Below, in pieces: positions 53,341-57,024 of a DNA stretch of 60,154 nucleotides. The position numbers and the translations under genes are program-made. The DNA is from an uncultured Duodenibacillus sp. (lineage in GTDB: Bacteria > Pseudomonadota > Gammaproteobacteria > Burkholderiales > Burkholderiaceae_F). The notes beneath the pieces are model-generated. The model made no database searches, was not told the DNA's origin, and saw only the letters and a list, made by a program, of their open reading frames with translations. Where the stretch lies: NCBI GenBank assembly GCA_944390745.1, contig CALXQK010000014.1, positions 1-60,154 on the forward strand. Direction: 5' to 3'. Each line of letters starts with the position of its first letter. Within the stretch, counting starts at the first letter, position 1.

Positions 53341-55350
53341 CTAAACATCCTGCGGATCGACCTCAATGTTCCAGGAGACGTCCGGATAGTCCTTGATCGA
53401 GGCCAGGGCCGCGGCAAGGTCCTTCAGAAAGGCCTGCCGGCGGGGGCGCCGCATGGTTTCAATCAAAAGCTGTCCGCGCTCGGCGTCCTTGAGACGCATC
53501 ACGAGCATCGGCACGGGGTCGTAGACAGCCACGTCGCCCGCGGCAAGCGCCGCGGCGCGCGTGCGGGCCGCACGAAGAAAGCCGAGCGTGCGCTCGAGCG
53601 CAGCCGACTGCGCGGTCAGCAGCGCCTGGAAGCTGTAGGGCGGCGCCATGGCCTCGCGGCGCGCCTCGAGCAGCCGCTGCGCAAACCGCTCGTAGTCCTG
53701 CGCCCGCACGTCGGCATAGATCGGATGCGAGGGAAAGCGCGTCTGGATCATCACGCGTCCGGCAAGCCTGTCGCGGCCCGCCCGGCCGGCAACCTGCAGC
53801 AGCGTGGCAAAGAGGTGCTCCTCGGCGCGCACGCTCGGGTTGACGAGCTGCGCATCGGCATTGAGCACCACCACCAGACTGACGCGCTTGAAGTCGTGCC
53901 CCTTGGCAATCATCTGCGTGCCGACGATGATGTCCACGGCGCCCGCATGCACGCTCTCAAAGGCCGCCTCCGCGGCATTCTTGGTGCGCACGCTGTCGCG
54001 GTCGATGCGCAGCACCCGCGCCCCGGGCCAGAGGGTCTCAATGCCCTCCTCGATGCGCTGCGTACCCGTGCCGACGGCCACGATCTCCGGATTGCCGCAG
54101 CTCGGGCAGCGCGCCGGAACGTCGTAGCTCGCGCCGCAGTGGTGGCACACCAGCCGCTGCGCGGCCTTGTGGTAGACGGTAAAGCCCGAGCAGTGCACGC
54201 AGCGGCTCACCCAGCCGCAGCTTGTGCAGGTGATGACGGGCGCATAGCCGCGCCGGTTGATGAAGACGAGGACCTGCTCGCCGCGCGCGAGCGTCTCGTC
54301 GATCGCCGTCTTGATCTCGGGGGCAAAGACGCGGGGCTTGCGACGGCTGATGTCGATGAGCTCCATCGCGGGAAGGCTCGCCGCCTGCACCGCGCGGTGC
54401 GTCAGCCGCAGCAGCCGGTAGGCGCCTGAAAGCGCCTTGGCCCAGGTTTCAAGCGAGGGCGTGGCCGATCCCAGAACGCAGGCGATGCCGTTGTCGTGGG
54501 CGCGCTTGACGGCCAGATCGCGCGCCGAGAAGCGCAGCCCCTCGGAGGCCTTGTAGCTCTGGTCGTGCTCCTCGTCGACGATGATGAGCCGCAGCTCGGC
54601 AAAGCTCGCAAAGATCGCCATGCGGGTTCCCACGAGCACCCGGGCGCGTCCCTCGTGCACCGCAAGCCAGCTGCGGGCGCGCTCGTTGGGCGTCAGGCCC
54701 GAGTGCATCGTGACGACGGTCTCGTCGACAAAGCGCCCCCGCACCCGGGCCTCGAGCTGCGGGGTGAGATTGATTTCCGGAACAAGCAGCAGCACCTGCC
54801 CCTGCGGGTGCCGCCGAAGAATCTCCTCGATGACGTGCAGATACACCTCGGTCTTGCCCGAGCCCGTGACGCCGAAGAGAAGATGCGTGGCGTAGCCCTC
54901 GCCCTGCACCACCGCCTCAAGCGCCGCGCGCTGCTCGTCGTTGAGCTCGATGCGAGGCGCTGCCTTTGCCGTCCTTGCGGGAAGCCTGCGGATGCGCTCA
55001 AGACTGCCCGCATAGCGCGCCCGCGGAACGGTGCGCAGAAAAAGCGGCAGCGTGGCCACCGAGGCCTCGCCCCAGCAGCGAATGTAGTAGTCCGCGGCAA
55101 ACCGCGTGAAGTCAAGCCACTCGCGCCGCAGGGGCACCACGTCGTGAAGCACTGCCGCGGCTGGCTTGATGCGCGCCTTGTCAACGTCGCTGGCGTCCTT
55201 GACGGCCACCACGATCCCCACATCCCTGCGCCGGGGCCCGAGCGGCACCACGACACGCTCCCCCGTGCACGCCGTCTCTCCCTCGGGCAGGGCGTAGTCC
55301 AGAGGCGGCAGCGGCACGTCAAGCAGGACTTCAATGTAGCGGCCGGACAT
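53341..55350 (-). CDS. priA: Primosomal replication protein N' (PriA helicase)
   Basis: 669 residues. PriA reloads the replisome at stalled forks. It has the 3'-DNA-binding N-terminus (MSGRYIEVLLDVPLPPLDYALPEG), Walker A GVTGSGKTE, Walker B DEEHD, and GSATPSLET. The zinc module has eight cysteines in four pairs (CTSC, CVHC, CHHC, CPSC), then the helicase motifs IVGTQMIAKGHDF and QVAGRAGR. It is about 60 residues shorter than E. coli PriA, as in other betaproteobacteria. The adjacent region to hemE contains DnaA boxes. Confidence 0.97.
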   Translation of the reverse strand: MSGRYIEVLLDVPLPPLDYALPEGETACTGERVVVPLGPRRRDVGIVVAVKDASDVDKARIKPAAAVLHDVVPLRREWLDFTRFAADYYIRCWGEASVATLPLFLRTVPRARYAGSLERIRRLPARTAKAAPRIELNDEQRAALEAVVQGEGYATHLLFGVTGSGKTEVYLHVIEEILRRHPQGQVLLLVPEINLTPQLEARVRGRFVDETVVTMHSGLTPNERARSWLAVHEGRARVLVGTRMAIFASFAELRLIIVDEEHDQSYKASEGLRFSARDLAVKRAHDNGIACVLGSATPSLETWAKALSGAYRLLRLTHRAVQAASLPAMELIDISRRKPRVFAPEIKTAIDETLARGEQVLVFINRRGYAPVITCTSCGWVSRCVHCSGFTVYHKAAQRLVCHHCGASYDVPARCPSCGNPEIVAVGTGTQRIEEGIETLWPGARVLRIDRDSVRTKNAAEAAFESVHAGAVDIIVGTQMIAKGHDFKRVSLVVVLNADAQLVNPSVRAEEHLFATLLQVAGRAGRDRLAGRVMIQTRFPSHPIYADVRAQDYERFAQRLLEARREAMAPPYSFQALLTAQSAALERTLGFLRAARTRAAALAAGDVAVYDPVPMLVMRLKDAERGQLLIETMRRPRRQAFLKDLAAALASIKDYPDVSWNIEVDPQDV

Positions 55351-55536
55351 GAAAGCAGGAAAAAGAAGGATTCGGACTATTGCAGACGATCAGGGGGAGG
55401 ATGCCGGACGGCGCGTCCGACCCCGGGGATTTTCTCCGGGCGTCCTATCGTACATCAAAAGAGGCGAAGGACCGCGCCTCATGAGCCGCACCGGGAAGAG
55501 TTCCCCGCAGGCCTTCCCGGCGCGCGGGAAAGGGCG

Positions 55537-55912
55537 TTCACAGACCTGTGAATAACTTTGCGGAAAACTTCGCGGCGCCCTTGCGCGCAGGTCTTCGGGC
55601 TGAATGGGTCGCGGCGCTGATACTGTCAGGGAAAACAATAAAAACCGTTTAATATCAACACATTGGAATTATTTTCCCGGTCCGCGGGGCATCCTGCAGC
55701 CTGCGGCGCCCACGAAATTGAGTGCCCAAAGGTTGTGGATAACTTTGCAGATAAGTGCAAAACCTCCCGGCAATCAAGGGGTTTTCGCAGAACCGGCCGC
55801 ATCAGGAACCGGCGGCGAAAAAAACGGGGCGGGCGGCTCCCGAAAGACCGTCAGAAGGTTCTCCGACGGCGTCCTCCGGCGTGAAGCCTTCTGTGGAAAA
55901 GCCTGTGGGAAA
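55537..55912. other. DnaA-box cluster with an AT-rich stretch between priA and hemE
   Basis: Two perfect DnaA boxes on the minus strand, TTATTCACA (55547-55555) and TTATCCACA (55734-55742), each extended by the same flank (TGTGRATAACTTTGC on the plus strand). A third box fits the relaxed consensus, TTTTCCACA (55892-55900), and a weaker TTTCCCACA follows (55904-55912). An AT-rich segment lies at 55632-55675. The 597-bp region holds no credible gene. It could be an origin, a DnaA-titration site or a DnaA-regulated promoter. Confidence 0.7.
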
Positions 55913-55947: not shown

Positions 55948-57024
55948 TCAAGCCTTCCTCTGGTGATAACGCCGGGAATAGGCGTGCACCTCGTCGGCAA
56001 GGATCGCCACAGCCTCGGGGTCGGTATGCTGGCTGATGCCGTGGCCGAGATTAAAGACATGGCCGCCTGTGCCCGTCTCGCCGAAACTGTCGAGCACGCG
56101 GCGCGCCTCGCGCCGGATAGCCTCCTCCCCGGCAAAAAGAACCATCGGATCAAGATTGCCCTGAAGGCTCACGGCGTCGCGGGTGCGCGCACGCGCCTGC
56201 GCAAGGTTCACCGTCCAGTCGACGCCCACGCAGTCGCAGCCGCTTTCGGCGATGGCCTCAAGCCAGGCGCCGCCGCCCTTGGTAAAGAGAATCACCGGCA
56301 CGCGCTTGCCCTCGTTTTCCTTGATGAGGCCCTCGAGAATGCGCTTCATGTAGCGCAGCGAGAACTCCTCAAAGCACCCGTCGGCAAGCGCTCCGCCCCA
56401 GGTATCGAAGATCTGCAGCGCCTGCGCGCCTGCACGAACCTGCGCGTTGAGATACTCGGTCACCGCACGGGCATTGACCTCGAGAATGCGGTGCAGAAGG
56501 TCGGGGCGCGCATACATCATCTTCTTGATGGTCGCGAAGTCCTTGGAACTTCCGCCCTCGACCATGTAGCAGGCCAGCGTAAAGGGCGAGCCGGAAAAGC
56601 CGATCAGCGGCACGCGGTTGTCGAGCGCGCGGCGGATGGTGCGCACGGCGTCGGTGACGTAGCGCAGTCTTTCCTCGGGATCGGGCACGAACAGCTTCGC
56701 GGCGGCCTCCTCGGTCTGCACAGGGTGCTCAAACACAGGCCCCTTGCCGGGCACAAAGCTCAGGCCGAGCCCCATGGCATCGGGCACGGTCAGGATGTCG
56801 GAAAAGAGAATGGCCGCATCCAGCCCGAAGCGCTCGACGGGCTGCAGCGTCACCTCGCAGGCGGCCTCGGGATCCTGGGCAAGCGCCATGAAGCTGCCCT
56901 TGCGCGTTCTCACGGCGTTGTACTCGGGCAGATAGCGCCCGGCCTGCCGCATCAGCCACAGCGGGGTATAGTCGGTCTGTTCGCGCTTGAGCGCACGCAA
57001 AAACGTATCGTTGACTGGCTTCAT
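55948..57024 (-). CDS. hemE: Uroporphyrinogen decarboxylase
   Basis: 358 residues. Converts uroporphyrinogen III to coproporphyrinogen III in heme synthesis. The signatures [15 protein letters not shown] and [16 protein letters not shown] are intact, and the catalytic Asp of [13 protein letters not shown] is present, with the C-terminal [12 protein letters not shown]. The ATG at 57022-57024 overlaps the start of the divergent DUF167 gene (CATG). No clear ribosome-binding site precedes it; the upstream DNA is T-rich. Confidence 0.97.

Follow-up and report, generated by a model that had tools for sequence, protein, structure and literature searches.

A candidate datA-like element of DnaA boxes and an IHF site between hemE and priA in an uncultured Duodenibacillus and its relatives

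Introduction

The best described system resembling the locus reported here is datA of Escherichia coli. In excerpts from three articles, datA is stated to require DnaA boxes 2, 3 and 7 together with an IHF site, in a single directionality and with spacing being important (PMC5742627, PMC10380432, PMC4585315); the first of these excerpts describes all essential boxes as like-oriented (PMC5742627). IHF at datA is governed by read-through transcription, according to a passage of a further article (PMC10950094). In the E. coli sequence NC_000913.3, box 2 (+, 4392744) is followed after 65 bp by the IHF consensus (-, 4392809) and after another 97 bp by box 3 (+, 4392906).

Other DnaA-box loci are known outside oriC. 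The E. coli DARS1 and DARS2 elements, which reactivate DnaA through ADP-to-ATP exchange, have a core made of a 12-bp tandem of like-oriented DnaA boxes and a convergent third box 14 bp off; DARS2 also employs an IHF site and requires Fis. According to an excerpt from one article, DARS2 is conserved among beta or gamma species proximal to E. coli (PMC5742627), whereas the corresponding passages of the original paper and of a later one give gamma (PMC4245941, PMC8682772). The DnaA-box clusters of Bacillus subtilis and Streptomyces, compared here by description only, also lie outside oriC and are said to restrain initiation; they are termed analogous to datA in part of one source (PMC5742627), and B. 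subtilis is said to have neither IHF nor datA in part of another (PMC13220808). Among the titles and abstract openings listed in searches of openly licensed literature, none mentions an element of the datA type in betaproteobacteria or beside priA or hemE, and an earlier report may exist.

Results

Layout of the sites between hemE and priA

The window analysed is an entire contig (C14) of 60,154 bases from a genome of 2.22 Mb in 20 contigs. Among named records, its hemE has its closest relatives in uncultured Duodenibacillus and Sutterella, which suggests a Sutterellaceae-like betaproteobacterium. Family models identified priA (53341..55350, minus strand; TIGR00595, 533.8 bits against a cut-off of 230.35) and hemE (55948..57024, minus strand; TIGR01464, above cut-off; ATG at 57024 in a longer frame reaching up to 57171) on the two sides of the element, as well as gyrB, dnaN and dnaA in the genome. 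The priA-hemE spacer is 597 bp long and holds two perfect TTATNCACA boxes. These are the only two in the window, where 0.27 are expected and at least two occurred in 3 of 100 shuffles. The whole genome has six (2 forward, 4 reverse, including C4:112099 upstream of dnaA and C4:102562) against four for a reversed-pattern control, so that box number is close to chance; the outstanding feature is the tight pair of perfect boxes.

A sequence-only reading of this DNA had described the spacer as a DnaA-box cluster with an AT-rich stretch, and its individual sites are all present. The perfect boxes are box A at 55734..55742 (TTATCCACA on the minus strand; TGTGGATAA in that reading) and box B2 at 55547..55555 (TTATTCACA, minus strand; there TGTGAATAA), both embedded in the common 15-bp context TGTGRATAACTTTGC. 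The AT-rich block at 55632-55675 (GC 0.28 at 55625-55674) corresponds to an IHF site with its A-rich flank. This site, absent from the earlier description, is a perfect match (TATCAACACATTG, 55653..55665, plus strand) to the consensus WATCAANNNNTTR, 77 bp from A and 110 bp from B2. The A/T-rich tract 5' of its core (55632..55652) makes up most of the block; such tracts are frequent at strong IHF sites. Each perfect box also has a weaker box 12 bp away that had gone unnoticed: A0 (TTATCTGCA, 55746..55754) beside A, and B1 (TTTTCCGCA, 55559..55567) beside B2, both degenerate with 2 mismatches and on the minus strand.

Read in the hemE sense, the element A0-A-IHF-B1-B2 (55547..55754, minus strand) thus runs from A over 77 bp to the IHF site on the opposite strand, and from there over 98 bp to B1 and 110 bp to B2. 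By this sequence criterion, strong DnaA boxes flank a single IHF site on both sides, and all four boxes share one orientation, as the essential boxes of datA do. A TTCACA/TGTGAA repeat (55537-55552) was also present as described; its TTCACA is contained in a degenerate convergent half-box (GCGTTCACA, 3 mismatches, 55534..55542, plus strand). Outside the core, the relaxed box TTTTCCACA (55892-55900) and the weaker TTTCCCACA (55904-55912) form a weak minus-strand tandem 12 bp apart (55892..55912), for which a fixed-place counterpart was sought among relatives and none was seen.

The likeness to E. coli datA lies in two like-oriented DnaA boxes around one IHF site in the same order and relative orientation, with box A in the place of datA box 2. 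The distance from IHF to the far box is 97 bp there and 98 bp (B1) here, and both loci are intergenic and away from oriC. They differ in that box A here is 12 bp (about one turn) more distant from IHF, the far side carries tandem boxes, the element is much nearer the presumed oriC, and the neighbours are priA and hemE instead of glyVXY and queG. Adjacent genes do not, however, define what such a locus does. As datA does not adjoin priA, the likeness is geometric and common descent is a proposal. By analogy with datA, an element directly downstream of hemE would be exposed to read-through control.

Conservation in the family

A hemE match was obtained in 58 of 67 family genomes, and the downstream region was examined in 56 (G054 and G031 were omitted, the contig end being too near). 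This comparison of the priA-hemE spacer, which the sequence-only reading had proposed, revealed the box layout in 45 of the 56, in 43 of them at hemE, with priA beyond the element in 42 of these 43. In G018 hemE is about 5 kb away from the element and priA 153 bp, and in G016 element and hemE are on different contigs. No box pair was detected downstream of hemE in 11 of the 56 genomes.

The IHF consensus occurs 106-113 bp before B2, exactly in 22/45 elements and with at most one mismatch in 36/45, counts that refer to hand-picked A/B pairs and to an offset window chosen after inspecting them; shuffled controls gave means of 0.005 (maximum 1) and 0.3 (maximum 3), respectively. Outside genus g16 it is in place in 36 of 37 elements (the exception is G014). 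Independent tests of the layout are the order scan, the class scan and the distance test described below. B1 has at most 2 mismatches in all 45 elements and at most 1 in 35, while A0 is present at 2 mismatches or fewer, 12 bp from A, in 15/45; by its place it might be a counterpart of the low-affinity box 7, which adjoins box 2 in datA. The A-B distance is 178-179 in 6 elements and 185-193 in 39. A DNA similarity search with the spacer matched 3 of 67 genomes, its own included; the letters therefore drift while the layout persists. In the elements of g3-g6, g9-g13 and g18, box A follows a TTGAC (mostly CTTGAC; CTTGACTTATKCACAAA), which those of g1, g2, g7 and g16 lack.

Two further box pairs, L061 (G044:C6) and L068 (G015:C127), were rejected as examples of this element. 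Their contigs carry ParA-/Rep-like frames (by family search below cut-offs for the former, judged by eye for the latter), and the pairs are probably plasmid-type origins.

A second location upstream of lpxK

None of the 19 genomes examined in genera g14-g17 has a hemE copy with the IHF consensus in place: there is no copy in five genomes of g14, three of g15, two of g17 and in G052, and eight of g16 have a copy without the consensus. Within 900 bp upstream of lpxK, perfect boxes sharing a strand are present in 17 of the 21 genomes searched from these genera. The 14 genomes from eight other genera, which all carry the hemE-type element, have no perfect box there. The final lpxK search covered 25 chosen genomes (11 of g16, 14 others), with no match in G056; the available sequence of G050 was cut at 266 bp, and the sole box of G053 is 859 bp off. 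The full box-IHF-box layout, with at most one mismatch in each part, is present upstream of lpxK in six genomes: G048 (66/97/109), G055 and G057 (79/98/110), G062 (78/107), and G063 and G064 (69/97/109, plus a further perfect box 48 bp away from IHF). The gene on the far side was identified as xseA (TIGR00237) in G048, G049 and G063. Since the full layout occurs there, the element is independent of priA and hemE.

Not every genome of these genera has a complete copy. No perfect box was detected upstream of lpxK in G051, G054 and G061, and no full layout on the lpxK side of g14, G049, G050, G052, G053 and G058-G060. Searches of the hemE side, the lpxK side or both gave no three-part copy in the five g14 genomes, G049, G050 and 9 of 12 g16 genomes. 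For example, the complete genome G051 has a hemE copy without IHF consensus and no perfect box upstream of lpxK.

The eight g16 hemE copies (G051, G053, G056, G057 and G059-G062) keep their boxes, and the IHF consensus is absent from its place in all of them; G053 and G059 have a 1-mismatch IHF site on the opposite strand. The g16 hemE copy looks to be decaying after a new lpxK-side copy arose (compare G055, G057 and G062).

Scans beyond the family and distance classes

A strict three-part pattern matched 99 of the 399 genomes sampled from the order, and 96 of these lie among the 386 outside the family; the reversed control gave 0. The strict pattern misses the window itself, whose last box is TTATTCACA, and relaxing the last box picks it up. 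The relaxed pattern matched 75 of the 369 genomes sampled from the class (reversed control 0) and matched the genome studied here exactly once, at the element. In a phylum scan sorted by hand, matches were found in 12/20 genomes of the order, 8/67 others of the class and 1/212 of other classes, again with a control of 0.

A subset of the matches, 30 loci from the order and 27 from the rest of the class (the window's own locus and two repeats excluded), was fetched and inspected. Both hemE and priA surround the element in 23 of the order loci, priA alone in 1 and neither in 6. Flanking frames were read in four of these six. Two of them, L158 and L162 (order family f8), have the element next to a UvrD/PcrA-type helicase gene, which like priA and xseA is a DNA repair/replication gene. 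Among the class loci, priA is beside the element in 11 and absent in 16; the 20 flanking frames from 14 of the 16 include HemN-type radical SAM, shikimate dehydrogenase, DctM, malic enzyme and others, with 6 lacking any match and none matching DnaA or MnmG.

The scan pattern permitted 60-82 bp between A and IHF and 97-114 bp between IHF and B. The 57 fetched loci use only 65-69 or 76-81 bp for the former and only 97-99 or 108-112 bp for the latter, and both datA spacings fall within these classes. The A-IHF distances fall into two groups that differ by about one helical turn and have nothing between them, as looping of the DNA would demand. For IHF-B, the two classes reflect the 12-bp tandem with its pair of boxes, not separate phases.

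Position of the replication origin

In the genome studied, the element and the presumed oriC sit on separate contigs. GC skew was followed on C4 over 93-129.85 kb in 2-kb windows: all five windows left of 103 kb are negative, the 11 between 103 and 125 kb are positive, and the final three are slightly negative. The sign change coincides with a site past gyrB that has AAAGTTATTCACA, AAAGTTATTCACC and CTAC repeats within a long AT-rich stretch. Having the skew change, extended DnaA boxes and AT-rich CATCTACTATCTAC-type repeats, which we take to resemble DnaA-trios, C4:102.5-103.0 kb (L007 9.5-10.0 kb) is the likely oriC candidate. A motif, TTTGATTATTCAAAC, occurs twice in the vicinity of the presumed oriC, at C4:116075 and C4:122813 (6.7 kb apart).

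The distance to the element was taken from relatives. In the complete genome G051, cumulative skew over a 200-kb stretch reaches its minimum at 1,916,653, within a group of boxes (1,916,440-1,916,739), and the hemE-side box pair (1,942,301-1,942,494) is 25.6 kb away. Twenty further 10-kb samples of G051 were negative at 0.8-1.8 Mb (8 samples), positive at 2.08-2.9 Mb (7) and of mixed sign at 0.05-0.65 Mb (5), as expected close to the terminus. Measurements in three relatives (G051, G053 and G018) place the element and the presumed oriC about 25-35 kb apart. On stretches of 15-18 kb, the local skew minimum lies within about 1.3 kb of the box cluster in three of eight relatives (G018, G045, G053), with no coincidence in G001, G009, G010, G020 and G030. 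In G030, dnaA and hemE are 640 kb apart and samples of the whole-genome skew are flat. With five of eight relatives discordant and G030 flat, the rival origin past gyrB is thus not proved for every genome.

Trans-acting factors

The genome has four HU/IHF-type genes: one IHF-beta above cut-off, one IHF-alpha-like and two HU-like. The IHF-alpha model is the best match of one gene at 96.4 bits, below the cut-off of 111. DnaA retains R281, R285, L290 and R334 (E. coli numbers), with R227, E21 and F46 differing.

Discussion

The sites, their order, orientation and fixed spacing, the wide conservation, the alternative locations, the IHF genes and the DnaA residues make it probable that the element is a datA-like locus, at which a bend made by IHF would allow DnaA molecules on A and B to interact, leading to hydrolysis of DnaA-ATP. 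A datA-like region was the alternative named in the sequence-only reading, and the layout and conservation evidence favour it. In the proposed mechanism, IHF would occupy the central site and sharply bend the DNA, which would bring DnaA on box A to DnaA on the tandem B boxes; the like orientation of the four boxes makes a head-to-tail DnaA assembly possible. By analogy with E. coli datA, hydrolysis of DnaA-bound ATP would then be stimulated after initiation, curbing re-initiation, and the element may additionally hold some DnaA. With the presumed oriC about 25-35 kb away, as measured in three relatives, replication would reach the element soon after initiation. Against the datA-like reading stand the degenerate B1 in the window, an A-IHF distance 12 bp longer than at datA, and the genomes without a three-part copy (g14, G049, G050 and most of g16). 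Moreover, most DnaA proteins probably share the retained residues.

The best surviving of the other readings, itself unlikely, is a DARS-like element that reactivates DnaA through ADP-to-ATP exchange. The B1/B2 tandem has the 12-bp spacing of the like-oriented boxes in the DARS1 and DARS2 cores, DARS2 shares the use of IHF, the conservation reported for DARS2 reaches beta species in one of the accounts cited above, and a convergent box within 1 mismatch is found at +13 or +15 in 3 of the 45 family elements. The other 42, however, are without the convergent third box of the core, and no listed DARS2 box is like-oriented 65-81 bp beyond the IHF site, the fixed place of box A here. DARS identity was therefore rejected: the core triad of a convergent box at 14 bp plus a 12-bp tandem is absent, the window having 3 mismatches in the convergent box.

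More doubtful again is DnaA-dependent transcription control of priA (or hemE). It would account for priA following the element in 42/43 hemE-side family elements, 24/30 order loci and 11/27 class loci, but not for the 6 order loci and 16 class loci where priA is absent, two of the six adjoining a UvrD-type gene, nor for g14-g17, whose boxes are upstream of lpxK instead, in six genomes with the full layout; a simple promoter also has no need of a fixed IHF loop. No sigma-70-like promoter was found at the element, which has little weight as only 0.1 is expected.

A non-catalytic role as a passive titration site for DnaA is less probable still. datA itself was first regarded as a titration site, and the eight g16 hemE-side elements that retain boxes without the IHF consensus would suit such a function; yet just two strong boxes are present, and titration makes both a fixed IHF site and set A-IHF distances unnecessary.

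Finally, a chromosomal replication origin at hemE-priA, the least probable reading by far, was rejected: DnaA boxes, an IHF site and an AT-rich stretch conceivable as a duplex-unwinding element are all present as in oriC, hemE flanks oriC in Caulobacter, and local skew disagreed with the box cluster past gyrB in five of eight relatives (flat in G030), but the skew turns on C4 near 103 kb and elsewhere in G051, candidates rich in boxes and AT sit past gyrB, and the AT-rich block is accounted for by the IHF site. The sequence-only reading had itself doubted an origin, as the atp operon would be head-on to replication, and the skew agrees with this doubt. It had further expected, if no origin lay here, a skew turn elsewhere and a box number near background, both of which were found, and boxes not conserved in relatives, whereas they are strongly conserved.

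Returning to the datA-like reading, we tentatively propose, as a view with slightly less than even chances, that datA, far from being peculiar to enteric bacteria, is one form of an old module of the Gammaproteobacteria in the broad sense (beta included). This module would combine box A, a bend by IHF and a tandem of B boxes in fixed spacing, often at priA, and would have relocated between lineages (priA, xseA-lpxK and others) with its geometry kept, E. coli datA being a moved copy. Natural variants are available as tests, namely the g16 hemE copies without IHF site, the xseA-lpxK copies and the g14 boxes without full layout. The distance rule (A-IHF 65-69 or 76-81 bp; IHF-B 97-99 or 108-112 bp) makes it possible to search any genome for the element and to predict the spacings that should be functional. 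If the reading is true, inactivation of DnaA by IHF-bent DNA would be a general replication control in beta- and gammaproteobacteria, beyond E. coli.
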